Assembly (NCBI GenBank): GCA_015064885.1
Contig: SVRJ01000003.1
Span: 1-64,000 of the forward strand
Direction of reading: 5' to 3'
DNA from: Oscillospiraceae bacterium
GTDB lineage: Bacteria; Bacillota; Clostridia; Oscillospirales; CAG-272
DNA length: 64,000 nt
The notes beneath the pieces are model-generated. The model was not told where the DNA came from and searched no databases. It worked only from the letters and a program-made list of their open reading frames with translations. The position numbers and the translations under genes are program-made. This document shows positions 24,182-46,190 of this stretch, piece after piece (positions within the stretch are counted from its first letter, which is position 1; each line of letters begins with the position of its first letter).

Positions 24182-27100
24182 ATGAAAACAAACCTTATGC
24201 GCAGGGCTACAAGCCTTTTACTATGTGTAGCACTGCTGATAACCTACATTCCGCTGACTATACTTTCTGCGGAGGACACTGCCATAAGCCGTATAGCCGA
24301 TGATCCTACAATAGATCATTGGAAGAAGCTTTTCGGACCCGAGGTCCTGTCTACAGAAAATGCAGGCGGCGTATGGATGGATAAATCCGTATTTACCGAT
24401 GCTTCTGCCTTTAACGGCACCGGAATAGCAATGAAGGATGCGAACAGCTTCCTCGTAGCACTTTCTGCAATAGCCGCGAATAAGACAGTATCGGGTATGT
24501 CCTCCACTCCCACAGACACGATACTCGTTCTCGACGTATCGGGTTCTATGAACAGAAGCTACAACGACGTTGCAGAAGATCTTGTAGACGCGGCAAACCA
24601 GAGTATTTCCACTCTGCTCGCAACAAACGAGCACAACAGAGTAGGAGTTGTTCTCTATTCGGGTTCAAGCAGCAGCGCTAACAACAGCGACGCGGCTATC
24701 CTCATGCTCCCGCTTGACAGATATACGACCGGAACAGATAATATCTATCTCACCTACTCGAATAACTACAACGGAGAGGTGATCGGCGTTGACAGAGACG
24801 TAAGGATCTCGGGAACAAATCAAGCTCCCGCAAGACAGAACAAGACCGTAGTAGGCGCTACGTATATTCAGAAGGGCGTTATTCTCGCCAAGGATCAATT
24901 CGTAGCCGATTCCAACTCCACAACGGTCACAGATCCGGTTCAGGGTACGCTGAAGCGCAAGCCCGTAGTCGTTCTTATGTCCGACGGCGACCCGACACTC
25001 GGCTCCACTAATTTCACAGCACCCGGTCAGTATGATCTCGGAAACGGACAGTCCACGAGCGCCGCTCTCGGATTTGTAAGCCAGCTCAGCATATCTTACG
25101 CCAAGGAGCTGATAAAAGCAAAATACAACACAGAGTGTCTCTTCTATACCATTGGTCTCGGACTCGGTGAAGACAACAGCGTTGCAAAAAGCGTTCTTCA
25201 GCCCTCCTCCTCCACAAATGCGATAAACGCCTTCTGGACGTCGTATAATAATGCGTCCGTAGGCGGAACAGTCACCGTTCAGGGAGGATGGAACGCAAAG
25301 AGGGTCACCAAGATATCCACACCGCTCTCTAAAGATTACGTAGATAAATCAATAATCGTAACCTCTTCGACCACAGATCTTGCCGGTGAGCTTAAAAACG
25401 CTTTTCAGTCTATAGTTGAAACGATCCAGCTCCAGTCAAAATACTTTCCAACCCTCATTTCGGAAAACGAAGACCTCTCGGGATACATATCTTTTGTAGA
25501 CAGAGTGGGTAAATATATGGAGGTCACCGACGTTAAGGGCGTTCTTATAAATAACACCCTCTTCTCGGGAAAGGACCTCGCTCAGAATTTCAAGGCGGGA
25601 GCAAACGGCGGCGCTCTCGGAAGTGCGAGCGATCCCACAGCCCTCGGACACGAGATGGTGGCAGCGGTTCAGGCGCGCATTGGTCTCAAGGATGCCGATG
25701 CGGCAAGAACTCTTATAACTCTCGCCCATCAGTACGGACAGCTCAGCTATATAAGCGACACCGAATTTTCAAACTACATCGGCTGGTATGCAAATGCTGA
25801 CGGTGAGTTCCTCGGCTTCTGGCATGAGGGAATCACGACAATGCCCGATCCCGATGACGAAGCTCTCACCGATGCAACAAGACCTGCATACATAATCAGA
25901 TCCTACGGCTATCTCGGTGCGGTAGATGAGGAGCACGGTGTTTCCGCATCCGATATGATGTACGCTACCGTTCAGGTTCGCAAGAGCATACAGACGGGTG
26001 AAGAAATAGTTACGTTCGCGGTTCCCGCGGCTCTCATTCCCGTTGTAACGTACAACGTTTCACTTAATGCAGACAATGATCTCTCTGACCTTGAAGTCAC
26101 CGGAGCTGAGCATCCTATAGCTCTCGTTTACGAGGTTGCGCTCGACGACTCGATCAACGAGTTCACGGTAATGGATATCGTATCCGATCAGTATCTGGCA
26201 GACCACGGGAACGATGACGGCACGGTAAGCTTCTTCTCAAACAAATACGATCACAACAATCTCACAGGCTACGGCACTACAAATACGTACGCCTACTTCA
26301 ACCCTTCAAGACAGAATGATAAATACTACTATCTCGAAGACACTGCCGTTTATTCGGACACAAACGGCACGCTCTACTCGGGCACGTCTCAGCCCACCGG
26401 CGACAAGTATTATGCATATACCGTTTATAAGAAGGACGGTGCTTCCCTGAAGACAGAGACCGCTTATAAAAAGATCTCCCCCGAGGTTCTGTCATCGACT
26501 CTCCAATATGAGAATTCATCAAGCTGGTACATTCCCAAGGGTGACGTCCGCGTAAACCTTGAAGGCTACAGCATCTATAAGGGCGGTTCTTCCTCCTACG
26601 ATCCTGCGGCTAACAAAACCGGTACGCTGAATTTTGCAAACATTCCTTTCGTTGATACTCATAACCACTCGGTCAATGACAGCGGATATAATTTCTTTGT
26701 AGGTGCTACACTCGGAAACAACGGAAGACTTACCGTGACTCCCGAAACAGGCATAAAGATAACGAAGAGTCTGGCAGATGGCGCAACAAGCACTTCTTCT
26801 CCCTTTACGTTTACTATAGCAAACCTCACAAACGAAAATGATTCGTCAACATATCCCGCATATATCATTCTCGCAGACGGCACAGCAAGCAATACCGAGG
26901 TAACGTTTGAAAACGGCAAGGCAACTGTTCTCCTCAACCCTCTCGACGTAATTTACATAGGAGGAATGGAGGACGGAACACAGCTCAGAATAGATGAGCC
27001 GGAAACCGTCGACTACAAGGTCGATTCGGTAAACGGACAGTCCGGTCGCTCTTATGCAGAAATAACCGTTACGGCAAATATGCTTAAAGAGGTATCGTTT

Positions 27101-30100
27101 GTCAATGCTAACAGAGGAACAGGTAACGTTCTTATCTCAAAGGAAGTACTCCACAACTTCGGAGTATCATATCAGATACCCGAAAGCAAGATATTTGAGA
27201 TGACCGTAGCTCTCAGCGGAGTAGGTACGGCAAACGCTGAGTTCCCCGCAAAGCATACGAACGGATCTGTAGACAAGATAACAACAGACGCAGAAGGAAA
27301 ATTCACCGTCTCACTGAGACACGACGAGCAGATAGAGATCTCCGATCTGCCTGCAGGAACCGTGGTAACCGTTCGCGAGCTTAACCCCGGAGCAGGATTC
27401 ACACCCGATTACACGGACACCGACAACGTAAATGACGGCGTACTTACAGTTCTCACCGACTCAACGGCAGCAGTTATAGTACGCAACTCGTACGCGGCAT
27501 CTGAGGTGTATCCCGTAAACGTTGACGTATCGGGTACTAAGACACTCAGAGGAAGAGATTGGCTCAGCACAGATTCGTTTACGTTCACACTTCAAAGACT
27601 TGAGAGCGACGGCGCCTGGACAACTCTCGCAGAGGCACACGTCAAGGGTACCGACGCAAGCAAGACCTTCAGCTTCAACGGTGCGTTTGCAAACGAAAGC
27701 TTCACCGCTCAGGGAACCTATTACTACAGAGTAACAGAAACAGAACCCGAAGGCGGCACTATAGGAGGAGTTTCCTATGATAAGACCGTGCATGCATTCT
27801 CGGTAGACGTTACCGACGTAGATATGGACGGTAAGCTCGAGATATCTGCGGTAAGAGCTGCACGCGAGGAAACGACTCATATCGAAAGCGAAAACAACTC
27901 CTGGCACGTAAGCGTTGACTTCCTTAACACCTACTCGGCTACCGGAAATGCAACTGTCACCATTGATCTTAACAAGACCGTAAGTAACGATTCACTCAGC
28001 CCGCTCGCAAGCGTAAGTGGCTTTGAATTCGAGCTTCTGAACGCCCATGACCGAACTGTATTCGCTATTTCCGAAAAGACCACAGACCGTGGATTTACAA
28101 GACTTATTCTCAATTATAACGAATCTGATATCGGCACTCACGAATATATTCTGAGAGAGAGGATCCCGACGTCTGTTCCCGCAGGATGGACCTACAGCAC
28201 CTCCGAGATCCCCGTGACCGTTATCGTAAAAGACACTAACGACGGTGAAATAACCGCTGTGATCTTCAAAGGAGACCCTAACTCTGTTCCCGAGACGGTT
28301 ACGACCTCCATATCCGAAAGCTTCATAAACTCTTATACGGCAAAGCCTACATCTCTCCCAATTGACTTTGTAAACAAAAACCTCAAGGGAAGAGATATGA
28401 ACGAAGGAGAATTCGAGTTTGCGATACTTGACGTTCAGGGCAACACGATCCTTACAGGTAAAAACAGCGCAGACGGAAAGGTCACCTTCAACGATAAGCT
28501 CTATTTTGACAAGGTCGGAACCTATGCATACTCTATCGTTGAAACAACAGGCGACGGCAACGGAATCGTATCCGACAAGACAGTATATTCGATGCTCGTT
28601 TACGTAACAGACGAAGGCGGAGAGCTTCGCGCTTCGTACAGCATACTTAACAGTGTAGGAACGACAGTAGTCTTCAACAACACCTACACCGCAAAAGAGG
28701 TATCCCATTCGGTATCCGGAAAGAAGCAGCTTATCGGACGAGTTCTCCTCAACGAAGAGTTCACGTTCGTTCTCACAGAGGCTCTTGATGCAAACGGAGC
28801 ACTTAAGGGCAACGCAATAAGCTACGAGGCGAAGAACTTTACAGACGGAACCTTCTCCTTCCCCGCTATAACGTATAAGGAAGCCGGCACGTATTACTAC
28901 GTTGTCACCGAAAAGGGAAACGGGCTCACACAGTACGGAATCAGATACGACAAGACCGAATACTCTGTTGCCGTAACTGTCAAGGATAACAAAGAAGGCG
29001 CTCTCGTTATCGACGAGGTAGTCTACAGTGTTATCGGCGGAAACGACGTAAACGAGATAAAGTTCATAAACAACTATATCCCGAACTCTACCAGCGTTTC
29101 TATCCCCGGTAACAAGATACTTGAGGGCAAGGTACTCGGCGAGGGTAATTTCTCCTTCGAGCTCTACAAATCAAATGAAGCATGGGAGCTTATAGGCGAG
29201 CCCGAGACGGTAAAGAACGGTGCAAACGGCAGCTTCTCCTTCGCTTCCGTTGAATACGACGCAGTAGGAACCTACTACTACGTAGTAAAAGAGGTAAACG
29301 GCGGAGAAAAGATAGACGGAGTAACCTATGACGCAACAGAATTCAGAGTAAAGATAACCGTGAGCGATAACCTCATGGGTCAGCTCGGCCATTCTATACT
29401 CGTATACGATAACTACGACGTTCCTCAGGAAGGCATAGAATTTGTTAACGTTTATGAAATAACCGGCGACAGCACGGTAGAAATAAACGGAAACAAGACA
29501 CTTAACGGACGCGACATGACAGACGGAGAGTTCACGTTTGAGCTTTACGAGACAGATCAGTCGTTCACCTTCCCCGAGGATCCCATGACGACGGCAACCA
29601 ACACAAACGGAAAATTCTCCTTTACTCTCGGATACACCGCAGAGGACGTCGGTAAGACATTCTACTATACGGTAAGAGAAAAGAACTTCGGCAAAACAAT
29701 AAACGGAGTCAAGTTCAGCAGCGTTACTTATTATATCACGGTAAAGGTCCTCGACGGCGGAAAGGGCAACGTAACCACCGAAATGACAATAACCAACGGT
29801 GAAAGCACAGTGTCCTCGCTCGACTTTGTCAACGAATACTCTGCTATCGGAGCAAGCATTGACTTTGATGGTAAAAAGACTCTCACCGGTAACCGTGAGC
29901 TTAAGGAAAACGATTTTACCTTTGATATCTATGCAACGGGCAGCTCATTTGCTATAAACGGCGATCCGATCAAGTCTGTAAAGAATGCATCTGACGGCAC
30001 ATTCAAATTTGAAGGGATCGAGCTCGACGGGGCAAAGACCTACTACTTCGTCATCAAGGAAAACGCGACCTCACCTATCGGCGGCGTTAAGTACGACTCA

Positions 30101-31120
30101 TCCGTATACAACGTTACTGTAACAGTAAAGGACGACGGAAACGGAAAGCTCTACGTTGAAGGCACGACCGTAGTAAAGATCAAGGATTCTGTATCCGAAA
30201 AAGCTACAGAGATCGAATTTACTAACGAATACAGTGCATCAAGCGTAAATCTCGTCCTCAGCGGCAAGAAGATACTCAGCGGAAGAGAGCTTCTTGCAGG
30301 CGAATTCTCGTTCATTCTTCAGGCTTCCGACGCAAACGGCAAAGCTCTTGACGGATCGGTTGCAATAAAAGCTCAGAATAAGGCTGACGGAAGCTTCACC
30401 TTCGACGCTCAGACGTTTACCGAAGCGAAGACCTATTACTTCACACTCAGAGAAGACACAAGCGTAAGCGCAGACCGTGTTAAATTCGACAGTACCGTTT
30501 ATCTTGTATCCGTAGAGGTAACAGACAACGGAGAAGGAAAGCTGATCGCTTCCGCTCCGGTGATAAGCAAGCTTGGCGAAGAAAGCAAGGTAAACGAGAT
30601 AGTATTCACAAACGTTTACACACCGAAGCCCACAGATATCACGGTAGACGTTAACGTGGTGAAGACAGTAAAGAACCTCGGAAGCGCTGCTATCACTCCC
30701 GAAGGCTTTGAATTCATTCTCGAGGATCTTGCAACAAAGCTCAAGTCCTCGGTAAAGACGGATGCAAGCGGCAAGGCAGTATTTACACTCACCTTCAGTG
30801 AAAGCGATATAGGAAAGACATACACCTATAGCCTCAAAGAGCTTAACGACGGAAGAGAAAACGTCAAGTACAGCACGGCAGAGTACACCGTATCGGTAAG
30901 TATATCGCTTGATGAAAACAATACTCTCGTCGCAAGCGTAAGACTTAACGAGGCTGACGTGAAATCCGCAGTCGCAGAGTTTGAAAACATTTACGACGTG
31001 CCTCCCGTAAATCCGCCCACAGGAGACAGAAGCCACCTTTGGCTCTGGATAGCTCTCGCATTCATAAGCGGAACTGTCATCATCTCCGCATTCGGCGGCA
31101 AGAGGAGAGAGGCAAGATAA
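24182..31120 (+). CDS. Giant cell-wall surface protein: VWA domain plus repeated Spy0128/FctA-type pilin isopeptide domains, NPPTG sorting signal
   Basis: Signal peptide; TILVLDVSGSMN (MIDAS); repeated KxLxGRxxxxxxFxFxL...TYYYVVxE...YDxTxYxVxVxVxDxxxG modules; C-term NPPTGDRSHLWLWIALAFISGTVIISAFGGKRREAR. Confidence 0.95.
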   Translation: MKTNLMRRATSLLLCVALLITYIPLTILSAEDTAISRIADDPTIDHWKKLFGPEVLSTENAGGVWMDKSVFTDASAFNGTGIAMKDANSFLVALSAIAANKTVSGMSSTPTDTILVLDVSGSMNRSYNDVAEDLVDAANQSISTLLATNEHNRVGVVLYSGSSSSANNSDAAILMLPLDRYTTGTDNIYLTYSNNYNGEVIGVDRDVRISGTNQAPARQNKTVVGATYIQKGVILAKDQFVADSNSTTVTDPVQGTLKRKPVVVLMSDGDPTLGSTNFTAPGQYDLGNGQSTSAALGFVSQLSISYAKELIKAKYNTECLFYTIGLGLGEDNSVAKSVLQPSSSTNAINAFWTSYNNASVGGTVTVQGGWNAKRVTKISTPLSKDYVDKSIIVTSSTTDLAGELKNAFQSIVETIQLQSKYFPTLISENEDLSGYISFVDRVGKYMEVTDVKGVLINNTLFSGKDLAQNFKAGANGGALGSASDPTALGHEMVAAVQARIGLKDADAARTLITLAHQYGQLSYISDTEFSNYIGWYANADGEFLGFWHEGITTMPDPDDEALTDATRPAYIIRSYGYLGAVDEEHGVSASDMMYATVQVRKSIQTGEEIVTFAVPAALIPVVTYNVSLNADNDLSDLEVTGAEHPIALVYEVALDDSINEFTVMDIVSDQYLADHGNDDGTVSFFSNKYDHNNLTGYGTTNTYAYFNPSRQNDKYYYLEDTAVYSDTNGTLYSGTSQPTGDKYYAYTVYKKDGASLKTETAYKKISPEVLSSTLQYENSSSWYIPKGDVRVNLEGYSIYKGGSSSYDPAANKTGTLNFANIPFVDTHNHSVNDSGYNFFVGATLGNNGRLTVTPETGIKITKSLADGATSTSSPFTFTIANLTNENDSSTYPAYIILADGTASNTEVTFENGKATVLLNPLDVIYIGGMEDGTQLRIDEPETVDYKVDSVNGQSGRSYAEITVTANMLKEVSFVNANRGTGNVLISKEVLHNFGVSYQIPESKIFEMTVALSGVGTANAEFPAKHTNGSVDKITTDAEGKFTVSLRHDEQIEISDLPAGTVVTVRELNPGAGFTPDYTDTDNVNDGVLTVLTDSTAAVIVRNSYAASEVYPVNVDVSGTKTLRGRDWLSTDSFTFTLQRLESDGAWTTLAEAHVKGTDASKTFSFNGAFANESFTAQGTYYYRVTETEPEGGTIGGVSYDKTVHAFSVDVTDVDMDGKLEISAVRAAREETTHIESENNSWHVSVDFLNTYSATGNATVTIDLNKTVSNDSLSPLASVSGFEFELLNAHDRTVFAISEKTTDRGFTRLILNYNESDIGTHEYILRERIPTSVPAGWTYSTSEIPVTVIVKDTNDGEITAVIFKGDPNSVPETVTTSISESFINSYTAKPTSLPIDFVNKNLKGRDMNEGEFEFAILDVQGNTILTGKNSADGKVTFNDKLYFDKVGTYAYSIVETTGDGNGIVSDKTVYSMLVYVTDEGGELRASYSILNSVGTTVVFNNTYTAKEVSHSVSGKKQLIGRVLLNEEFTFVLTEALDANGALKGNAISYEAKNFTDGTFSFPAITYKEAGTYYYVVTEKGNGLTQYGIRYDKTEYSVAVTVKDNKEGALVIDEVVYSVIGGNDVNEIKFINNYIPNSTSVSIPGNKILEGKVLGEGNFSFELYKSNEAWELIGEPETVKNGANGSFSFASVEYDAVGTYYYVVKEVNGGEKIDGVTYDATEFRVKITVSDNLMGQLGHSILVYDNYDVPQEGIEFVNVYEITGDSTVEINGNKTLNGRDMTDGEFTFELYETDQSFTFPEDPMTTATNTNGKFSFTLGYTAEDVGKTFYYTVREKNFGKTINGVKFSSVTYYITVKVLDGGKGNVTTEMTITNGESTVSSLDFVNEYSAIGASIDFDGKKTLTGNRELKENDFTFDIYATGSSFAINGDPIKSVKNASDGTFKFEGIELDGAKTYYFVIKENATSPIGGVKYDSSVYNVTVTVKDDGNGKLYVEGTTVVKIKDSVSEKATEIEFTNEYSASSVNLVLSGKKILSGRELLAGEFSFILQASDANGKALDGSVAIKAQNKADGSFTFDAQTFTEAKTYYFTLREDTSVSADRVKFDSTVYLVSVEVTDNGEGKLIASAPVISKLGEESKVNEIVFTNVYTPKPTDITVDVNVVKTVKNLGSAAITPEGFEFILEDLATKLKSSVKTDASGKAVFTLTFSESDIGKTYTYSLKELNDGRENVKYSTAEYTVSVSISLDENNTLVASVRLNEADVKSAVAEFENIYDVPPVNPPTGDRSHLWLWIALAFISGTVIISAFGGKRREAR
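27509..31003 (+). repeat. Nine tandem FctA/Spy0128-like pilin modules (starts ~27509, 27947, 28346, 28697, 29090, 29471, 29852, 30242, 30638)
   Basis: Module starts read from recurring S/T-V-x-I/V-x-G-x-K-x-L-x-G-R pattern; modules 2 and 9 are of a divergent subtype. Confidence 0.8.
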
Positions 31121-35297: not shown

Positions 35298-35326
35298 TTG
35301 ACTTTAACGTTGAAATATGTTATACT
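35298..35326 (+). promoter_or_regulatory. Sigma-A promoter, extended -10
   Basis: TTGACT-17 nt (ending TGT)-TATACT. Confidence 0.7.
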
Positions 35327-35375
35327 TATTGTATAGAAATTGACACATACTAATAGAAAATATCAAGGTGGACAT

Positions 35376-38360
35376 ATGGAAAAGCAAAAAAGAAGAAAAA
35401 ATACTTTCTGGCTGGCACTGACAATATTCAGCCTCGTAGGTCAGGTCGCGTGGACGGTTGAGAATATGTATCTCAACGTATTCATTTACAAGACCTTTGG
35501 AGCATCCGCCTCGGATATTTCAAACATGGTCGCCGCCTCCGCGGTCATCGCTACGCTCACCACGGTGTTTATGGGAGCGCTCTCAGACCGAGTGGGAAAA
35601 AGAAAGCTGTTTATATGCGGCGGATATATCCTGTGGGGACTCTCTATATTCGGATTTGCCGCTCTGAGAACAGATCTGCTCAGCACGATAGCCGGTGCCG
35701 CGTCCGCGGCAAGCCTAGGCATCTCACTCACGATCCTGCTCGACTGTATTATGACATTTTTCGGATCAACGGCAAATGACGCGGCATTCAATGCGTGGCT
35801 CACGGATTCAACTACCGAAAAGAACAGAGGAGCGGCAGAAAGCGTAAACGCAATGATGCCTCTTATCTCTATCCTTGCCGTGTTCGGCGGATTTATGTTT
35901 CTCGATCTCGACATACCCTCATCCTGGACGATCATTTTCTCGGTTATAGGTATACTCGTACTACTGATCGGTATTATCGGTGCGTTCATTATAAAGGAGC
36001 CTGATATAAGCCGTGACAGATCCCCCTACCTGGCGGGTATCCTTTACGGCTTCAGAGCATCTACAATAAGGAAAAATCCGCGCCTGTATATAACACTTGC
36101 GGCTTTCATCCTCCTCAACGTGTCTATACAGATATTCATGCCCTATCTGATCATATACTACGAGGTGTCGCTCGGAATGACAAACTACGTGCTGATACTC
36201 GCGCCCGCGGTTATCCTTGCGGCGGCAGTCACCGCTGTTTGGGGCAGATTTTATGACAAAAAGGGATTTTCGGTATCCGGTGCTCTTTCAATAGCTATCC
36301 TCGTCTTGGGATATGCAATACTCTATCTGACAAGAAGCACCGCACCCGTATTCATAGGCTCGCTTCTTATGATGAGCGGATACCTTTCGTCTATAGCCGT
36401 ATTCGGTGCTATGATAAGAGACAATACTCCTGTGGGAAAATCGGGAAGACTTCAGGGCATAAGAATATTCTCTCAGGTCCTCATTCCCGGAATAATAGGA
36501 CCCTACATCGGAAAGACCGTTCTCGCAAATGCGGATACTCTCGTAGGCAACGACGGAACCGTCTCGTTTATTCCCAATGCAAATATATTCATAGCGGCAG
36601 CCGTGGCGGCTCTGATCGTATTTCCCGTGTTCTTTATTTTGAAAAACAAAAAGCCCACACGCTTTGCGGAACTGACAACAGATTTTGAAAATGATGAAAA
36701 GAAGGACGGTATTCCGTTTGCAGAGTATCCGCGTCCGCAAATGAAACGAGATTCTTATATCTGCCTCAACGGAGAGTGGTCCTTCGAGATAAAAAGAAAT
36801 GGCGTCTCTGTCTACTCGGGTAAAATAACAGTTCCCTTCTGCCCCGAGAGCCGCCTCTCGGGCGTAATGAGAAGCATAACGGATGACGACGTTCTCGTTT
36901 ATGAAAGGAACACTGACCTTCGAATAAACGATGAGGAACGCATTATACTCCATATAGGAGCCTGCGACACCGAAACCGAGGTATATGTAAACGGGTGTAA
37001 GGCAATCGAAAACCGCGGTGGCTATCTGCCCTTTTCCGTGGATATCACCGATATGTGCAGAAGCGGTAACAACCTCATACGCATAGAGGCACGCGACAGA
37101 ACAGACCCTGATTATCCGTACGGAAAACAGACGAAGAAACGCGGCGGAATGTGGTACACCAAGATCAGCGGAATATGGCAGACGGTATGGATAGAACACG
37201 TTCCAAACAGTCATATAGAAAAAATAAAGATCACACCCGATCTCCTTGGAATAGACCTTGAGGTCTCCGGAGGAGAGGAGGAGAAAACGCTCAGCTTCAA
37301 CGGCAAAGACTACACATTCACAGGAGATCACTTCAGACTTGACGTTGAAGCTCCGATCCTCTGGACACCCGATGATCCTCATCTCTATGATTTTTCGATC
37401 ACATCGGGTAGTGATAAGGTGTATTCCTACTTTGCGCTTCGCACTGTATCTATAGGTGAACGGAACGGAAGATCGTTTATTCTTCTTAACGGTGAGCCTA
37501 TATTCTGCCACGGTCTTCTCGACCAGGGATACTTCCCCGACGGAATATTCCTTCCCGCATCCGAAAGAGGGTACAAAGAAGACGTTCTGAAGATGAAGGA
37601 GTGCGGCTTCAATATGCTGAGAAAGCATATAAAGCTTGAGCCGGATATTTTCTACTATTACTGCGACAAATACGGCATGCTCGTATTTCAGGATATGATA
37701 AACAGCGGAAAATACAGCTTTATTATAGATACCGCGTTGCCCACGGTCTTTCTTAAGAAGGGGGTCACGCACCGCGCAAGCAAAAAGAGACGCGAAGAAT
37801 TCTACAGAACGTCGCTCGGTATCATTGAAGCGCTCTACAATCACCCATCCGTCGTCTACTATACCATATTCAACGAGGGCTGGGGGCAGTTTTCCGAAAA
37901 GGAATGCTACGATCTCTTAAAGGGTGCAGACCCTACGAGAATATACGATACTACCTCGGGCTGGTTCAAGGTAGACAGCACTGACGTTGAGAGCGACCAC
38001 GTTTATTTTAAACCGGTAAAGCTCAAAAGTGTAAAGGGCAGACCTATGGTCCTCTCAGAATTCGGAGGATACGTCTGCAAGATAGACGGGCATTCATTCA
38101 ACACCGACGAAACCTACGGATACAGATTTTTCGACAGCACGGATAAGCTTGAAGACGCTCTTATATCACTCTACGAAGATGAAATAATGCCCGAGACCGA
38201 AAAAGGACTTTGCGCAACAGTGCTTACTCAAGTCAGCGACGTTGAGGATGAGACCAACGGCCTTCTTACCTATGACAGAAAAGTGCTCAAGGTATCTCCG
38301 GATCGCATGTCCGATATGGCGAAAAGGCTTTACGCCAAATTTTCGGAAAACAACAGATGA
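35376..38360 (+). CDS. MFS transporter fused in frame to glycoside hydrolase family 2 (GH2) domain
   Basis: N-term ~430 aa with ~12 TM MFS pattern (MGALSDRVGKRKLFICGGYILWG; WGRFYDKKG); C-term GH2 sugar-binding domain (SYICLNGEWSFEI; GGMWYTKISGIWQTVWIEHV), acid/base IFNEGWGQ and nucleophile VLSEFGG; single uninterrupted ORF. Confidence 0.9.
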   Translation: MEKQKRRKNTFWLALTIFSLVGQVAWTVENMYLNVFIYKTFGASASDISNMVAASAVIATLTTVFMGALSDRVGKRKLFICGGYILWGLSIFGFAALRTDLLSTIAGAASAASLGISLTILLDCIMTFFGSTANDAAFNAWLTDSTTEKNRGAAESVNAMMPLISILAVFGGFMFLDLDIPSSWTIIFSVIGILVLLIGIIGAFIIKEPDISRDRSPYLAGILYGFRASTIRKNPRLYITLAAFILLNVSIQIFMPYLIIYYEVSLGMTNYVLILAPAVILAAAVTAVWGRFYDKKGFSVSGALSIAILVLGYAILYLTRSTAPVFIGSLLMMSGYLSSIAVFGAMIRDNTPVGKSGRLQGIRIFSQVLIPGIIGPYIGKTVLANADTLVGNDGTVSFIPNANIFIAAAVAALIVFPVFFILKNKKPTRFAELTTDFENDEKKDGIPFAEYPRPQMKRDSYICLNGEWSFEIKRNGVSVYSGKITVPFCPESRLSGVMRSITDDDVLVYERNTDLRINDEERIILHIGACDTETEVYVNGCKAIENRGGYLPFSVDITDMCRSGNNLIRIEARDRTDPDYPYGKQTKKRGGMWYTKISGIWQTVWIEHVPNSHIEKIKITPDLLGIDLEVSGGEEEKTLSFNGKDYTFTGDHFRLDVEAPILWTPDDPHLYDFSITSGSDKVYSYFALRTVSIGERNGRSFILLNGEPIFCHGLLDQGYFPDGIFLPASERGYKEDVLKMKECGFNMLRKHIKLEPDIFYYYCDKYGMLVFQDMINSGKYSFIIDTALPTVFLKKGVTHRASKKRREEFYRTSLGIIEALYNHPSVVYYTIFNEGWGQFSEKECYDLLKGADPTRIYDTTSGWFKVDSTDVESDHVYFKPVKLKSVKGRPMVLSEFGGYVCKIDGHSFNTDETYGYRFFDSTDKLEDALISLYEDEIMPETEKGLCATVLTQVSDVEDETNGLLTYDRKVLKVSPDRMSDMAKRLYAKFSENNR

Positions 38361-38381: not shown

Positions 38382-38410
38382 TTGACAAAATCACACGTTT
38401 GTGATAAAAT
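38382..38410 (+). promoter_or_regulatory. Sigma-A promoter, extended -10
   Basis: TTGACA-17 nt (ending TGA)-TAAAAT. Confidence 0.75.
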
Positions 38411-38447: not shown

Positions 38448-39710
38448 ATGAAAACGAATTACACGAAATTAAAATTTGCTTGTTACACCACCAATATGTC
38501 GATGTCTGTGGTGGCAAGCCTCTCTCCGGTCCTCTTCACTACCTTTTACAGAGAATACGGTATATCATTTTCTCTTCTCGGACTACTTGTACTCGTAAAC
38601 TTTTTCACACAGCTTGCGGTAGATCTGATATTCTCCTTCTTCTCTCATAGGTTCAACATTCCGCTTGCAATAAAGCTCACCCCCGTAATAACGCTTCTCG
38701 GATTACTCATATACGCGCTCTTTCCTTTTTTGCTACCCGAGTACACCTACGTCGGGCTCGTCATCGGAACGATCGTGTTTTCCGCTTCGAACGGACTTGC
38801 AGAGGTGCTTATAAGCCCTGTGATCGCCGCTATTCCCGCAAAGGATCCCGACAGAGAGATGAGCAAGCTTCACTCCATATATGCGTGGGGTGTCGTATTC
38901 GTGATAATTTTTTCAACTCTTTTCCTTTCGATCTTCAAAAGCCAAAGCTGGCAGATACTCGCGCTCGTTCTTATGCTGATACCGCTCAGCTCGGTCCTTC
39001 TCTTCGTCGGAACCGATATCCCCGAGATGAAAACGGAAGAAAGAGTCTCGGGAGTGCTTAAATTCTTAAAGAACAAGAGCCTCTGGCTCTGCGTTGCAGC
39101 CATATTCTTCGGAGGAGCCGCTGAATGCACAATGGCTCAATGGTGCTCGGGTTACCTTGAACAAGCATTCATGATAGATAAGGTAAAGGGTGATATTTTC
39201 GGTGCGGCACTGTTTGCCCTCATGCTCGGAACGGGCAGGACGCTCTATTCAAAGATAGGCAAAAACATCGCACCCGTCCTCTTTTTCGGCATGCTCGGTG
39301 CAACCGCCTGCTATCTTGTTGCGGCGCTCTCGGGAGTACCGTTCATAGGCCTTGTCGCATGTGCTCTCACAGGCTTTTGCGTTTCGATGCTTTGGCCGGG
39401 AAGCCTCATAGTAGCCTCAGACAGATTTCCCGCGGGAGGAGTGTTCATATATGCCATGATGGCTGCGGGCGGAGATCTCGGAGCCTCGGTCGGTCCTCAG
39501 CTCGTCGGAATCATCACCGACACCGCAATAGCTGCTTTTGATGCAGATACTCTTATGCAGACATTCGGACTTTCACCCGAGCAATTTGGGATAAAGCTCG
39601 GTATGCTCGTCGGAATGATCTTCCCCCTTATAGGTATCTTTGTTACCGCTCGCATACTGAAAAGCAAAAAGGCATCTTCCGTAAATACGGATAGGCCGAT
39701 GGAGATATAA
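38448..39710 (+). CDS. MFS transporter
   Basis: 12-TM pattern, FTTFYREYGISFSLLGLLVLVNFFTQLAVDLIFSFFSHRF. Confidence 0.88.
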   Translation: MKTNYTKLKFACYTTNMSMSVVASLSPVLFTTFYREYGISFSLLGLLVLVNFFTQLAVDLIFSFFSHRFNIPLAIKLTPVITLLGLLIYALFPFLLPEYTYVGLVIGTIVFSASNGLAEVLISPVIAAIPAKDPDREMSKLHSIYAWGVVFVIIFSTLFLSIFKSQSWQILALVLMLIPLSSVLLFVGTDIPEMKTEERVSGVLKFLKNKSLWLCVAAIFFGGAAECTMAQWCSGYLEQAFMIDKVKGDIFGAALFALMLGTGRTLYSKIGKNIAPVLFFGMLGATACYLVAALSGVPFIGLVACALTGFCVSMLWPGSLIVASDRFPAGGVFIYAMMAAGGDLGASVGPQLVGIITDTAIAAFDADTLMQTFGLSPEQFGIKLGMLVGMIFPLIGIFVTARILKSKKASSVNTDRPMEI

Positions 39711-40873: not shown

Positions 40874-43090
40874 ATGAAAACGTATACAAAAAACGTCGAG
40901 GAAGCTATTTCTGCCTTGACCGAACGCCCGATGCTTGCCGCAGATGCGGAAAGGATAACCATAGCACACTCCTTGCTGAACGAGGAGCCTTCGCTGCCGC
41001 AGCCTGTAAGATTTGCACGTGCTGTGGCGGCACTTCTTGACGGAGTCTCGGTTCCGATCGAAAGTCATGATCTTATTGCCGGGAGATCGGTTCAAAGAGA
41101 GCTTACGGACGATGAGGAAATGATGTTCTCCGAGCTTATCTCGGATCCGCGTTCCCCTTATAAGACCTCCGTCCTTTCAGCAGGACACTGCTCGTATGAT
41201 TGGGATATGATAGCAGAAAACGGTATGCCCGGACTTATCGCCAAGGCAAAGGCATCGCTGAGCAGCAAAAGCGATCCGGAAAGCCGTATCTTCCTCTCCT
41301 CGGTCATTGAGGTGTACGATGCCATCGTACGCTATATTCTCAGATATTCCGAAGCGGCACGCGAGCGTGGGATGACAGAGCTTTCACTCACCCTCAAAAA
41401 AGCCGCACTTGAAAAGCCTTCAGACTTCCGCACAGCGCTCCAGCTGATGTGGATAATAACCCTTATAAATTGCTCGTATATTACAGCCAACCCCACTCTT
41501 ACGGTGGGCAGACTCGACCGCATTCTTTATCCCTTTTACAAGGCGGACACAGAATCGGGAAGGCTCACGCGTGATGAGGCAAAGGAGCTTATCACCGATT
41601 ACTACTGCAAGCACAATCTTAATATGGGACGCGGAGAGCATCAGATCGGAGACGCTTCGAACTCCACGACCTTTGCGAGAGTATTCAATTTTGACGCCCC
41701 GCAGTATCTTTTACTCGGTGGAACAGATATTGGCGGCAGATATGCGGTGAACGAGCTTACATATCTTTTTGCCGAATGCATCAAACCCGAATTTAAAAAT
41801 CCCGTCGTTGTATTTTACTACTCACCCGGAATGGATAAAGAATACCCCGAGCTTTGGAGGATACTTTCATCGCGCGCTCTTTCCTCGTCCGCTCTTATGT
41901 TCTATAACGACTCATGCGTAAAGAGCGCCTATCGCCGCCTCGGTCTTCCCGAGGAGGATTTTGCCGATTATCATCATTTCGGATGCAATTGGCCTTCCCC
42001 GGGATCTCATAGCTTTTGGATAAATGGGGCACCTTCGGCACGCCACTATGACGTGTACGTCTCCGAGGGTAAGCGCGCGGATCCGTATTCCTTTGCCCGC
42101 ATTCCGCAAAAGGGCTGGCAGGACGTGCTTATAGACATCCTTCATAAATACCGCGACCGTACGGACGTAACTATCGAGGATATCTATTCGGATTACTTCG
42201 ACTTTATGAATTCGTTTTGCGAAAAAAAGATCGAGAGAGGCGTCCGTGAGGTGCGTATTCGACGAATGAGGCCTTCATCCGTATGCTTTTTCTGCGATTG
42301 CTTCACAAGGGCGCCGATAGAACGCGGAGAGTGCTTCACAGCCTGTGCCAAATACATCTTTGCGCTATTGAATTTTCAGATGTTCGGAACCGTATGCGAC
42401 TGTTTTACTGTTATTGACGCGCTCGTTTTCCGTGACAAAAGGCTGACACTCGGCGAGCTTCTCGATGCGGTAGATTCTGATTTTGAAGGCCACGAAATGA
42501 CACTTGCACTCTGCAGATCGGTTCCCAAATACGGAAGTAACGACGCCTTTTCCAATATGCACGTGAAAAGACTTGCAGAGGAAATGGCAAATATCGCACG
42601 CAAGTGCTCAAAAAAATATATGGAAAGCGACGGTTTTATCGGTGTGCCCTGCTTACAGAGTGACACTTGGCACATCAAATACGGACGAAAATACGGAGCG
42701 ACTCCGGACGGTCGCCGTGCCGGAATGCCGTTCACTCAGAACTCACGGCCTGCCAACGGCTCGTGTACTTCCGGAATTACGGGGATGCTCAATTCCATGC
42801 TCAATATACCTTCAGACGGCTTTGTCTCGGGCGCACTCAATCTTGACGTCGACCCGAAGCAATTTCAAAAGGAAGACGGAATCGATGTATTTGCCTCTAT
42901 ACTTGCGGTTTATTTCAATCGCGGAGGGCTGCACGCACAGGTGACCTCGGTAAGCCGAGAGGAGCTTCTGGATGCGCAGATAAATCCGCAGCTGCACAGG
43001 GATCTGAGAGTGCGGATAACCGGATACAGCGGTATTTTCGTAGATATTTCAAGGCCGCTGCAGAATGATATTATTGAAAGAATGAAATAA
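40874..43090 (+). CDS. Second divergent glycyl radical enzyme (PFL family)
   Basis: Glycyl motif RVRITGYSGIFVDISRPLQNDIIERM; active-site Cys in FADYHHFGCNWPSPGSHSFW. Confidence 0.92.
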   Translation: MKTYTKNVEEAISALTERPMLAADAERITIAHSLLNEEPSLPQPVRFARAVAALLDGVSVPIESHDLIAGRSVQRELTDDEEMMFSELISDPRSPYKTSVLSAGHCSYDWDMIAENGMPGLIAKAKASLSSKSDPESRIFLSSVIEVYDAIVRYILRYSEAARERGMTELSLTLKKAALEKPSDFRTALQLMWIITLINCSYITANPTLTVGRLDRILYPFYKADTESGRLTRDEAKELITDYYCKHNLNMGRGEHQIGDASNSTTFARVFNFDAPQYLLLGGTDIGGRYAVNELTYLFAECIKPEFKNPVVVFYYSPGMDKEYPELWRILSSRALSSSALMFYNDSCVKSAYRRLGLPEEDFADYHHFGCNWPSPGSHSFWINGAPSARHYDVYVSEGKRADPYSFARIPQKGWQDVLIDILHKYRDRTDVTIEDIYSDYFDFMNSFCEKKIERGVREVRIRRMRPSSVCFFCDCFTRAPIERGECFTACAKYIFALLNFQMFGTVCDCFTVIDALVFRDKRLTLGELLDAVDSDFEGHEMTLALCRSVPKYGSNDAFSNMHVKRLAEEMANIARKCSKKYMESDGFIGVPCLQSDTWHIKYGRKYGATPDGRRAGMPFTQNSRPANGSCTSGITGMLNSMLNIPSDGFVSGALNLDVDPKQFQKEDGIDVFASILAVYFNRGGLHAQVTSVSREELLDAQINPQLHRDLRVRITGYSGIFVDISRPLQNDIIERMK

Positions 43091-43105
43091 CAGAGAGGGA
43101 TAAGC

Positions 43106-44041
43106 ATGAAAAAAATCACTCTTACAAACGGACTCAGTGTCTCTCCGATCTGCCTTGGGGCTATGATGTTCGGAACTACGGTCTCAAAGGAGGCTGCTTA
43201 CAGGATCCTTGATTCCTACGTTGATATGGGAGGCAACTTTATCGACACGTCAAACAACTATGCTCACTGGGCAGGAACGGGCGACGAAAGTGAAACGCTC
43301 CTCGGAGAGTGGCTCAGCGACAGAGGGTGCCGTGATAAATTAATTATTGCAACGAAGGTCGGCTTTGACCGTCACGGAGCAGGAGCCGGACTTAGACGCG
43401 AGCAGATCGAATATTGGTGCGACGAAAGCCTTCGCAAGCTCAGAACCGACCGTATCGATCTCTATTACGCCCACACCGATGACCCGAATACTCCAATAGA
43501 GGAAACCGCCGAGGCGTTTGACTTGCTCGTAAAAAAGGGAAAGGTGCGCCTTCTCGGCGGAAGCAATTACGATACCTGGAGATTTGCCGAGTTCAACTAT
43601 ACCGCAAAGGAAAAAGGACTTACGCCCTATACGGTGATGCAGCAAAGATTCACCTACCTCAACGCACGCCACGATATTAAACCTAATTATATTTTTAACG
43701 AAAACACAGGCCGCGAGCGTCTGAGATTTCTGGAGGACAAGGACATCCCGCTTGTAGCATATTCCTCTCTTATTCGCGGAGCGTACGAAATGCCCGAGCG
43801 TCTGCCCGAAAACTACGTCGGAGGCGCAAGGCTTGAGATCCTTTCGAAAATGGCACTTGAAAAGCGAGTCTCCCGCAGTGCGCTTGCTATCGCTTGGATG
43901 TGCAACGCTCACAGAATGAAGGGATATCCGAGAGTCATTCCGCTTTTTTCCTCGTCAAATCCAAAGCATTTCTCGGATAATTGCAGCGGTGCGTATTTAG
44001 AGCTCACCGACGAGGAAATGAATATACTTACCGAAGCATGA
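43106..44041 (+). CDS. Aldo/keto reductase
   Basis: VSPICLGAMMFGT...GGNFIDTSNNYAHW...RKLRTDRIDLYYAHTDDPNTPIEET...GKVRLLGGSN. Confidence 0.94.
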   Translation: MKKITLTNGLSVSPICLGAMMFGTTVSKEAAYRILDSYVDMGGNFIDTSNNYAHWAGTGDESETLLGEWLSDRGCRDKLIIATKVGFDRHGAGAGLRREQIEYWCDESLRKLRTDRIDLYYAHTDDPNTPIEETAEAFDLLVKKGKVRLLGGSNYDTWRFAEFNYTAKEKGLTPYTVMQQRFTYLNARHDIKPNYIFNENTGRERLRFLEDKDIPLVAYSSLIRGAYEMPERLPENYVGGARLEILSKMALEKRVSRSALAIAWMCNAHRMKGYPRVIPLFSSSNPKHFSDNCSGAYLELTDEEMNILTEA

Positions 44042-44808
44042 TACCGTTTGTCTTTGATATAAACAGATCCTCGACCGCAGACGGTCCGGGCGTAAGAACT
44101 GCTTTTTTCTTCAAGGGCTGCAATCTTGACTGCAAATGGTGTCACAACCCCGAGGGAAAATCACCTGCACCCGAGCTTGCTCTCTTTTCCGAAAAATGTA
44201 TCGGATGCGGAATATGTGAAAGAATATGTCGGAGCCGTGAGGAATGTATATCCTGCGGAGAATGTACCGCCATGTGCCCGCAGGGTGCGAGAAAACTCTA
44301 CGGTCACAGATATACCGCAGAGGAGCTTTACTCTATCGCAGCAGAGGATCTGGATTTTTTCCGTGCAAGCGGCGGTGGAGTAACGTTTTCGGGCGGAGAA
44401 TGCATGCTTTATCCGAGTTTTTTAGCCGAGCTTTCAAGGAGGTGCGTTCTTGGAGGTATTGACGTAGCAATAGACACTGCAGGGCACGTTCCGTGGAGTC
44501 ATTTTGAAGCGGTACTTTCTTACGTATCATGCTTCCTTTACGATATCAAGGCCATTGATCCCGCGCTTCATAAGCTCGGCACGGGGGTTGATAATTATCT
44601 TATACTCGACAATCTTGAAAAGCTGATACGCACAGGCAAGAAAATAATTATCCGCACGCCCGTTATTCCCGAATATAACGACGGGGCGGAGCTTGAAAGA
44701 ATAACCTCATATTGCGCAAAGCGTGGGCTTACGCACGAGCTTTTACCGTATCACAGTATCGGTGAAAATAAAAAACTCGCTCTGTATGCGGCAAAAAATC
44801 AAAAATAA
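44038..44808 (+). CDS. Glycyl-radical enzyme activating protein (radical SAM)
   Basis: TADGPGVRTAFFFKGCNLDCKWCHNPEG; CIGCGICERIC...CISCGECTAMCP; GGGVTFSGGECML; start overlaps AKR stop. Confidence 0.95.
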   Translation: MIPFVFDINRSSTADGPGVRTAFFFKGCNLDCKWCHNPEGKSPAPELALFSEKCIGCGICERICRSREECISCGECTAMCPQGARKLYGHRYTAEELYSIAAEDLDFFRASGGGVTFSGGECMLYPSFLAELSRRCVLGGIDVAIDTAGHVPWSHFEAVLSYVSCFLYDIKAIDPALHKLGTGVDNYLILDNLEKLIRTGKKIIIRTPVIPEYNDGAELERITSYCAKRGLTHELLPYHSIGENKKLALYAAKNQK

Positions 44809-44870: not shown

Positions 44871-46190
44871 TCAATTCACACTATTCACAACACCGGCAAA
44901 AAGAACTGCACCGTAGCTATCTGTGATCACGAACCCGAAGGCTCTGTCAACGATGTAGTCGTGATATACCTCCTCATATCCATCAAGAGGACCTGCCGCG
45001 CCTGCCATCGGCATAACGGTAACAGCCGCACCTTCGATGCCCCTATCATTCACGTCGATGCTACACTTATGGATAACACCGTCGCAAGCAAGCTTCTCGT
45101 CTGTTACGTTTGAAAGGTCGCACTGTTCAAAATCAAACAGATCGTTGATTCCAAAATCGTTTTTGAGTATCTCGGCGAGATCACCGTCAAAGGAAGCCTT
45201 GTATTCCGGGAAAAAGACTCTTGTGTGATGCAAAAGCTTGTTTTCCTCATCAATGTATCCGTAATCACCGAGATTGTTGATATTGTAAATGTTGTCCGAG
45301 GTGAATACTTCCTCAAGAGTATGTCCGTCGGTGGGAAGGATAAACTTAATATCAAAGCCGTGCTCTGTTCTTGTGTAGAATGAGGTATATCCCTCTCCTT
45401 CGTAGATGTTACCGTTAAAATAATAGCCTTGAAGCAGCTTGGTGTTTATCATGCTTCCGTCTGCGTTTTTGAAATCATACGCCTTATCGGTAAACTTAAG
45501 CTCGTCACCATCCTCGTTCCAAACCTCTTTGAGATAGAACGTATTGATGAGCGTGATCAAGGTCTCGGGTGACAGATCGAGGTCACTGTCAATAACACCG
45601 TGTGTTTTGTCCTTGATATAGGCGTTGATCGCCTTCTCGCCCTCACTCGTCTTAAAGTTCACGCTGAACAAGTCGCAGTTAAAGTTACTTGCAAGATCGT
45701 TTATACCATCTTCTTTGAGCGTAGTATTCTTATCCACCCAAATAGAATTTGCAAGCTCCTCGAATGCGAGGATCTTCTTGTTATTCATCATATTGGTGTA
45801 GTAATACTCGCGGTTGGAGAAGGCATAAAGCACCTTGGTGAAATTCTTTACCTCATCGTAGGTAACACCCACGGCGTTCAGTATTTCATCCCTTGTTTCG
45901 CCGCCCGAACACTCGGTTGCAAGAGCGAGTGCCATATAGACCGACACGGGCGAGATGCAAATATTCGATTGCTTATTGCTGTCTGCATAGACCTCATAGG
46001 TAAGCTTTGAAGCAAAGGCATCTAACTTGTCAAGGAAATTCTCATAGCTTTCTTCTTTCGCATCCGAGTATTCGACCTCAATTGCTTTCGCCGCAAGTGC
46101 CAAGGAATAATTCTCGGGATTTACGGCGCAGGATGAAAAAGCGAGACATATTGTTAAAACGAGAATTAACGATATAAATTTCTTCATCAC
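44871..46190 (-). CDS. Serpin family lipoprotein (serine protease inhibitor-like)
   Basis: Lipobox LAFSSCAV; SNICISPVSVYMALALATECSGGETRDEILNAVGV; INTFYLKEVWNEDGDELKF; hinge VNDRGIEGAAVTVMPMAG; FGFVITDSYGAVLFAGVVNSV. Confidence 0.93.
   Translation of the reverse strand: MMKKFISLILVLTICLAFSSCAVNPENYSLALAAKAIEVEYSDAKEESYENFLDKLDAFASKLTYEVYADSNKQSNICISPVSVYMALALATECSGGETRDEILNAVGVTYDEVKNFTKVLYAFSNREYYYTNMMNNKKILAFEELANSIWVDKNTTLKEDGINDLASNFNCDLFSVNFKTSEGEKAINAYIKDKTHGVIDSDLDLSPETLITLINTFYLKEVWNEDGDELKFTDKAYDFKNADGSMINTKLLQGYYFNGNIYEGEGYTSFYTRTEHGFDIKFILPTDGHTLEEVFTSDNIYNINNLGDYGYIDEENKLLHHTRVFFPEYKASFDGDLAEILKNDFGINDLFDFEQCDLSNVTDEKLACDGVIHKCSIDVNDRGIEGAAVTVMPMAGAAGPLDGYEEVYHDYIVDRAFGFVITDSYGAVLFAGVVNSVN

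Follow-up and report, generated by a model that had tools for sequence, protein, structure and literature searches.

Can a membrane transporter and a glycoside hydrolase form one polypeptide, and if so, what would such a protein do? The question is raised by an open reading frame (ORF) at 35376–38360 (+) in a 64,000-nucleotide stretch of the genome of an Oscillospiraceae gut bacterium (contig SVRJ01000003.1 of assembly GCA_015064885.1; hereafter, the window). The frame is open for 994 codons from the ATG at 35376 to its stop, without an internal stop or frameshift. Its product consists of a 12-helix transporter of the major facilitator superfamily (MFS; residues 1–425), a linker of ~25 residues, and a complete glycoside hydrolase family 2 (GH2) enzyme (residues ~450–994). 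Pfam places MFS_1 at residues 24–376 and GH2 models at residues 503–862. An initial annotation of the window had called this gene an in-frame MFS-GH2 fusion and rated it the most unusual architecture there. The fusion is a genuine gene and is open in many independent genomes; it is not a unique case, nor does it stem from faulty assembly.

Relatives were sought in one genome per species plus 297 genomes of the window's family, and the loci were classified by script. This yielded 40 fused records, 66 pairs of adjacent, separate genes, 25 GH2 genes alone, and 14 MFS genes alone. With duplicate and truncated records removed, the set comprised 37 non-redundant, full-length fused genes, including that of the window, none of which contains an internal stop. 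Represented are 12 genera of the family to which the window belongs, as well as other Clostridia and Erysipelotrichia, and the hosts of these genomes, where named, mostly point to the ruminant gut. The fusion is not a one-off, and a two-gene form is widespread. In a phylum-wide sample searched at E 1e-120, no strong relative besides the window itself was recovered.

In the two-gene form, the MFS gene is directly followed by the GH2 gene. Such pairs occur in Actinomycetota (Nonomuraea, Actinomadura, Rhodococcus, Cellulomonas, Microbacterium, and others), Spirochaetales (Spirochaetota), Sporosarcina, and many Clostridia. In 38 of 64 separate pairs, the two reading frames overlap by exactly 4 nt at the MFS stop and GH2 start, which suggests translational coupling. 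GH2 proteins of separate pairs begin a few residues before the EYPRP motif, too close to it to accommodate a signal peptide. At one locus (L019, 5965–7286), the MFS gene is split into two frames beside an intact GH2 gene, which could reflect a frameshift error in a metagenome-assembled genome or a decaying gene. Clustering of neighboring genes revealed no conserved partner beyond the MFS-GH2 pair itself; what recurred were ABC transporters of various kinds and, at high-GC loci, ORFs called in the wrong frame.

The junction retains traces of both genes. The short linker described in the initial annotation is present, yet it is mostly the former C-terminal tail of the transporter (about KKPTRF) running into the native N-terminal segment of the GH2 enzyme (LTTDFENDEKKDGIPFA), which has the pattern LxTPFEE...EYPRPQ in the linkers of the family. 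The distance from an anchor before transmembrane helix (TM) 12 to EYPRP is 45–60 residues in fused proteins (median 51), while the same distance summed over both proteins of separate Bacillota pairs has a median of 58. Judging by the parts and lengths of the linkers, the genes were joined nearly end to end. A Shine-Dalgarno (SD)-like motif with a start codon lies near the junction in 44 of 64 separate pairs versus 2 of 37 fused genes; thus, nearly all fused genes (35/37) have lost the ribosome-binding site and start codon of the GH2 gene. In the window's linker, no SD motif precedes an in-frame start codon. A stop plus ribosome-binding site in relatives, which the initial annotation had regarded as a sign of sequencing error, does exist in other lineages, where it marks the two-gene state instead.

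The two states have interchanged repeatedly. When the fused/separate state is mapped onto a tree of 102 concatenated pairs, 9 changes are needed, all of them forced by branches with SH-aLRT support of at least 95, and a second tree of 43 rows built with a mixture model again requires 9. A single fused clade was rejected: forcing it on the 43-row tree costs 892 log-likelihood units (approximately unbiased [AU] test, p = 4e-7). Fused lineages include the window's own clade, L103/L106, L104, L011 plus L014 (Erysipelotrichia), and L015/L017/L018/L024. Separate pairs L020, L113, L114, and L115–L118 are nested inside the main fused clade, and all 36 rows of the Actinomycetota clade (one being Sporosarcina) and all three Spirochaetales rows are separate. 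The state has therefore changed at least nine times, a count in which gains and losses of fusion are not distinguished. Repeated joining and separating of neighboring genes suggests that both parts serve to take up and cut one sugar.

As for the identity of that sugar, the enzyme half is informative. Its region of Pfam matches comprises two sugar-binding models, the Ig-like GH2 domain model, and the TIM-barrel model, all over the Pfam cut-off, and phmmer aligns residues 448–985 with solved GH2 enzymes. Both catalytic glutamates are where the initial annotation had placed them: the acid/base E834 (IFNEGWGQ; nt 37875–37877) and the nucleophile E895 (LSEFGG; nt 38058–38060). Together with N833, they are invariant across an alignment of 36 fused proteins and are equivalent to E464 and E530 of ORF1110, a beta-D-galactofuranosidase from Streptomyces sp. 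JHA19. A Foldseek search with the full-length model returned this enzyme as its best match (9j6m, E 2e-43), with TMt values of 0.86–0.87 to 9j6m and 7sf2. The closest solved sequence relatives in phmmer are 7sf2 (326 bits) and 9j6n (316 bits), followed by 7xyr (GH2_19; 204 bits) and other GH2 chains at ≤68 bits. On a tree of the enzymes, the paired ones group with 9j6n and 7sf2, not 7xyr. The genome's second GH2 relative (G000:C17:2204-3817, L002) is a distant, stand-alone gene (38% identity in tblastn) and is not a member of the paired-enzyme clade.

ORF1110 belongs to GH2 group III, whose activities are on furanosides and in which a Thr replaces the stacking Trp at the -1 subsite (PMC12243196). 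Published activities of its alanine mutants (PMC4560423) were placed on the solved sequence by a numbering offset, at which 17 of 18 residues agree (the next-best offset gives 6). Eight mutants retaining <20% activity define the critical positions, and seven of these are kept in the window enzyme: D574, D680, E755, D773, E834, E895, and E959. The catalytic glutamates, common to GH2 enzymes in general, account for two of these seven and taken alone are no argument for galactofuranose. By sequence and modeled fold, the enzyme half is nearest to the group III furanosidases (GH2_18/GH2_19), not to beta-glucuronidases or beta-galactosidases, and the earlier proposal of beta-glucosides or glucuronides as substrates thus loses its support.

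The transporter half was modeled confidently by AlphaFold2 from 59 relatives, with 12 helices and a pLDDT of 93. It has the fold of an MFS protein and carries motif A (GALSDRVGKRK, residues 67–77) in loop 2–3. Lys and Arg residues number 21 on the predicted inner side versus 3 on the outer side, so both termini are predicted to be cytoplasmic, which would position the enzyme at the inner face of the membrane, as the initial annotation had surmised. Foldseek matched the half to general MFS structures (YajR, OxlT, VMAT, NorA, DgoT, and XylE), and the top match of a profile search of the PDB was AmpG, a permease for sugar-containing muropeptides. The MFS_2 model (MFS/sugar transport) is matched by 31 of the 59 family members; the window protein does not match it at E 0.01, and it scores far below curated cut-offs throughout NCBIfam, including that for sugar symporters.

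It is probable, if only just, that the fusion encodes a one-polypeptide importer of small beta-D-galactofuranosides (or alpha-L-arabinofuranosides) with a hydrolase tethered at its cytoplasmic face. For the small furanoside that the MFS part, a secondary transporter, would import, a beta-D-galactofuranosyl glycoside or oligosaccharide is the likeliest candidate, and an alpha-L-arabinofuranosyl compound is a possible one. The GH2 group III exo-furanosidase, on a short linker at the cytoplasmic C-terminus of the transporter, would then hydrolyze the imported furanoside, and the freed galactofuranose would convert to galactopyranose and be phosphorylated by galactokinase. The fusion would have arisen from a conserved two-gene operon, MFS then GH2 and translationally coupled, whose genes were joined, and sometimes re-separated, many times. 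Import of a sugar with hydrolysis on entry is plausible, although we infer its direction as well as the substrate; physical coupling or channeling between the halves, and a benefit from tethering, may be further features of such a system. A bolder version, in which a dedicated furanoside importer hands its substrate directly to the tethered intracellular furanosidase and was assembled independently several times, is doubtful.

Metabolic context is compatible with galactose as a product without proving it. The window's own genome (completeness 91.5%) encodes galactokinase, lacks UDP-galactopyranose mutase, and has no match to AraA_N. Galactokinase was found in all 39 carriers of the fused or adjacent form examined.

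Several observations weigh against galactofuranoside import. All 26 control genomes, in which the protein has at most a weak relative, encode galactokinase as well; this gene is therefore uninformative as an association and was dropped as a linked trait. Several genomes hold MFS and GH2 at different places, and the "alone" classes partly reflect such unlinked copies. The arrangement of the domains in the full-length model is uncertain (pTM 0.65). As for the substrate, D500 of ORF1110, an activity-critical residue, is replaced by K865, and galactofuranosidase and arabinofuranosidase activities overlap in group III (PMC12243196). The same tethered import and hydrolysis might accordingly act on another glycoside, such as an alpha-L-arabinofuranoside, a beta-galactopyranoside, or an unknown furanoside conjugate, in a branch that drifted from galactofuranose. 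This is somewhat unlikely, though not negligible: group III does include alpha-L-arabinofuranosidases (PMC12243196), the fold alignment shows just ~34% identity to ORF1110, and 7sf2 was deposited as a beta-galactosidase. In contrast, seven of the eight critical residues are kept, and no pyranosidase is found among the closest relatives of known activity. AraA exceeds its cut-off in just 3 of 39 carriers, a count that covers carriers only and, with the missing AraA_N match in the window's genome, tells against arabinofuranoside use in either account.

The remaining difficulties concern direction. The MFS half has no close characterized relative (phmmer versus the PDB was empty at E 0.01), and its profile and fold matches mix importers (AmpG, DgoT, and XylE) with drug exporters (such as NorA, LmrP, and YajR). 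TIGR00880, a multidrug resistance model, is weakly matched by 42 of the 59 members. The half could thus be an exporter of the released sugar, the aglycone, or an unrelated compound, or else a sensor, with the GH2 substrate entering by another route. Such a role is improbable: antiporter motif C (GPxxGG) was not seen in TM5 of the alignment, judged by eye, and the MFS_2 matches and the AmpG profile match stand against it, as does the repeated joining to a cytoplasmic hydrolase, which fits import better. Least probable by far is a sequencing or assembly error that joined two genes, or two polypeptides made through internal initiation. Separate genes with stop, ribosome-binding site, and start do occur in relatives, but many studies and genera contributed to the 37 non-redundant fused sequences, whose linkers are uniform in length and nearly all lack internal initiation signals.

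Features of the fusion gene are collected in the table below. The candidate promoter sits 50 nt 5′ of the start codon, and its scan score alone is not functional evidence.

Table 1. Coordinates of the MFS-GH2 fusion gene and its candidate expression signals within the window.
Feature	Position	Strand	Basis
Candidate promoter, TTGACT-17-TATACT, with TG before the second hexamer	35298..35326	+	Consensus scan, 10/12 matches
SD-like AAGGTGG (35365-35371), then start codon ATG at 35376	35365..35378	+	Sequence
MFS half, residues 1-425, 12 TM helices (predicted), motif A	35376..36650	+	Pfam MFS_1, AlphaFold2, Foldseek, K/R counts
Linker, residues 426-449	36651..36722	+	Comparison of 37 fused and 64 adjacent loci
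GH2 half, residues 450-994 (EYPRPQ... to C-terminus)	36723..38357	+	phmmer, Foldseek, catalytic-residue conservation
Stop codon of the fusion gene	38358..38360	+	ORF reading

A second MFS gene (38448–39707) begins 87 nt downstream, as initially annotated; a link between the two is not supported, and this gene was rejected as a conserved partner because it is not conserved beside the fusion. It has its own strong promoter-like site (38382–38410, +), the spacer of which is overlapped by a palindrome (ATCACA-CGTT-TGTGAT) that may be an operator. Given this site and the palindrome, the second MFS gene is probably a separate, regulated unit. A connection to defense was likewise rejected, the sole sign being a weak PADLOC match to the GH2-like part.

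Elsewhere in the window, 40874–44808 (+) encodes a glycyl radical enzyme of 738 aa, an aldo/keto reductase, and a radical-SAM activase. The 738-aa protein reached no NCBIfam cut-off, and opposite SGCTE of its best PDB match it reads FGCNW, apparently without the Glu that normally follows the catalytic Cys; judged by its sequence, it is possibly a glycyl radical enzyme of unknown function. In the translation of a 2312-aa predicted surface protein (24182–31120, +), the N-terminal region resembles a vWA domain, numerous repeats are reminiscent of Cna-B, and a PPTGD motif at the C-terminus precedes a hydrophobic stretch. Finally, 44871–46190 (-) encodes a serpin-like protein with a putative lipoprotein signal (MMKKFISLILVLTICLAFSSC), recognized by eye from the translation.

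The conserved and repeatedly joined MFS-GH2 pair constitutes strong comparative evidence for one shared substrate. An orphan MFS branch thereby gains a predicted ligand, and rumen and hindgut Clostridia gain a possible route to the use of galactofuranose-bearing glycans. The pair also offers a simple system in which to ask whether tethering an enzyme to a transporter helps, with independent fused and separate forms as natural controls. If true, a direct-handover machine would represent a new mode of sugar uptake and the first galactofuranoside-specific MFS importer.

In the bacterial literature searched, galactofuranosidases are described as secreted enzymes, and no MFS importer for galactofuranosides was found. 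Nor did any paper describing an MFS-GH2 fusion or pair turn up, which is weak evidence of novelty as subscription journals lay mostly outside the search; the GH2 subfamily study removed proteins with transmembrane domains in its secretion analysis (PMC12243196). Among known systems, ORF1110 is, alongside 7sf2, the nearest solved relative, with the same fold, the same catalytic NE and E, and most of the same activity-critical residues. It differs in that it carries a signal peptide, possesses an additional AbfB domain, and is not membrane-bound, whereas the window enzyme has no signal peptide and forms the C-terminal half of a transporter. MFS sugar/cation symporters (MFS_2/GPH, XylE, and AmpG) share the 12-TM fold, motif A, and weak profile matches with the window protein, which in contrast exceeds no NCBIfam cut-off and carries an enzyme domain. 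LplT-Aas offers the nearest precedent: some bacteria encode this MFS flippase and acyltransferase in an operon and others as a single ORF, and the two are proposed to form a complex with substrate tunneling (PMC11416262). Both systems combine an MFS protein with a cytoplasmic enzyme and exist as a coupled gene pair and as a single ORF. LplT-Aas pairs a lipid flippase with an acyltransferase of an unrelated enzyme family, while the fusion described here would pair a sugar transporter with a glycosidase.
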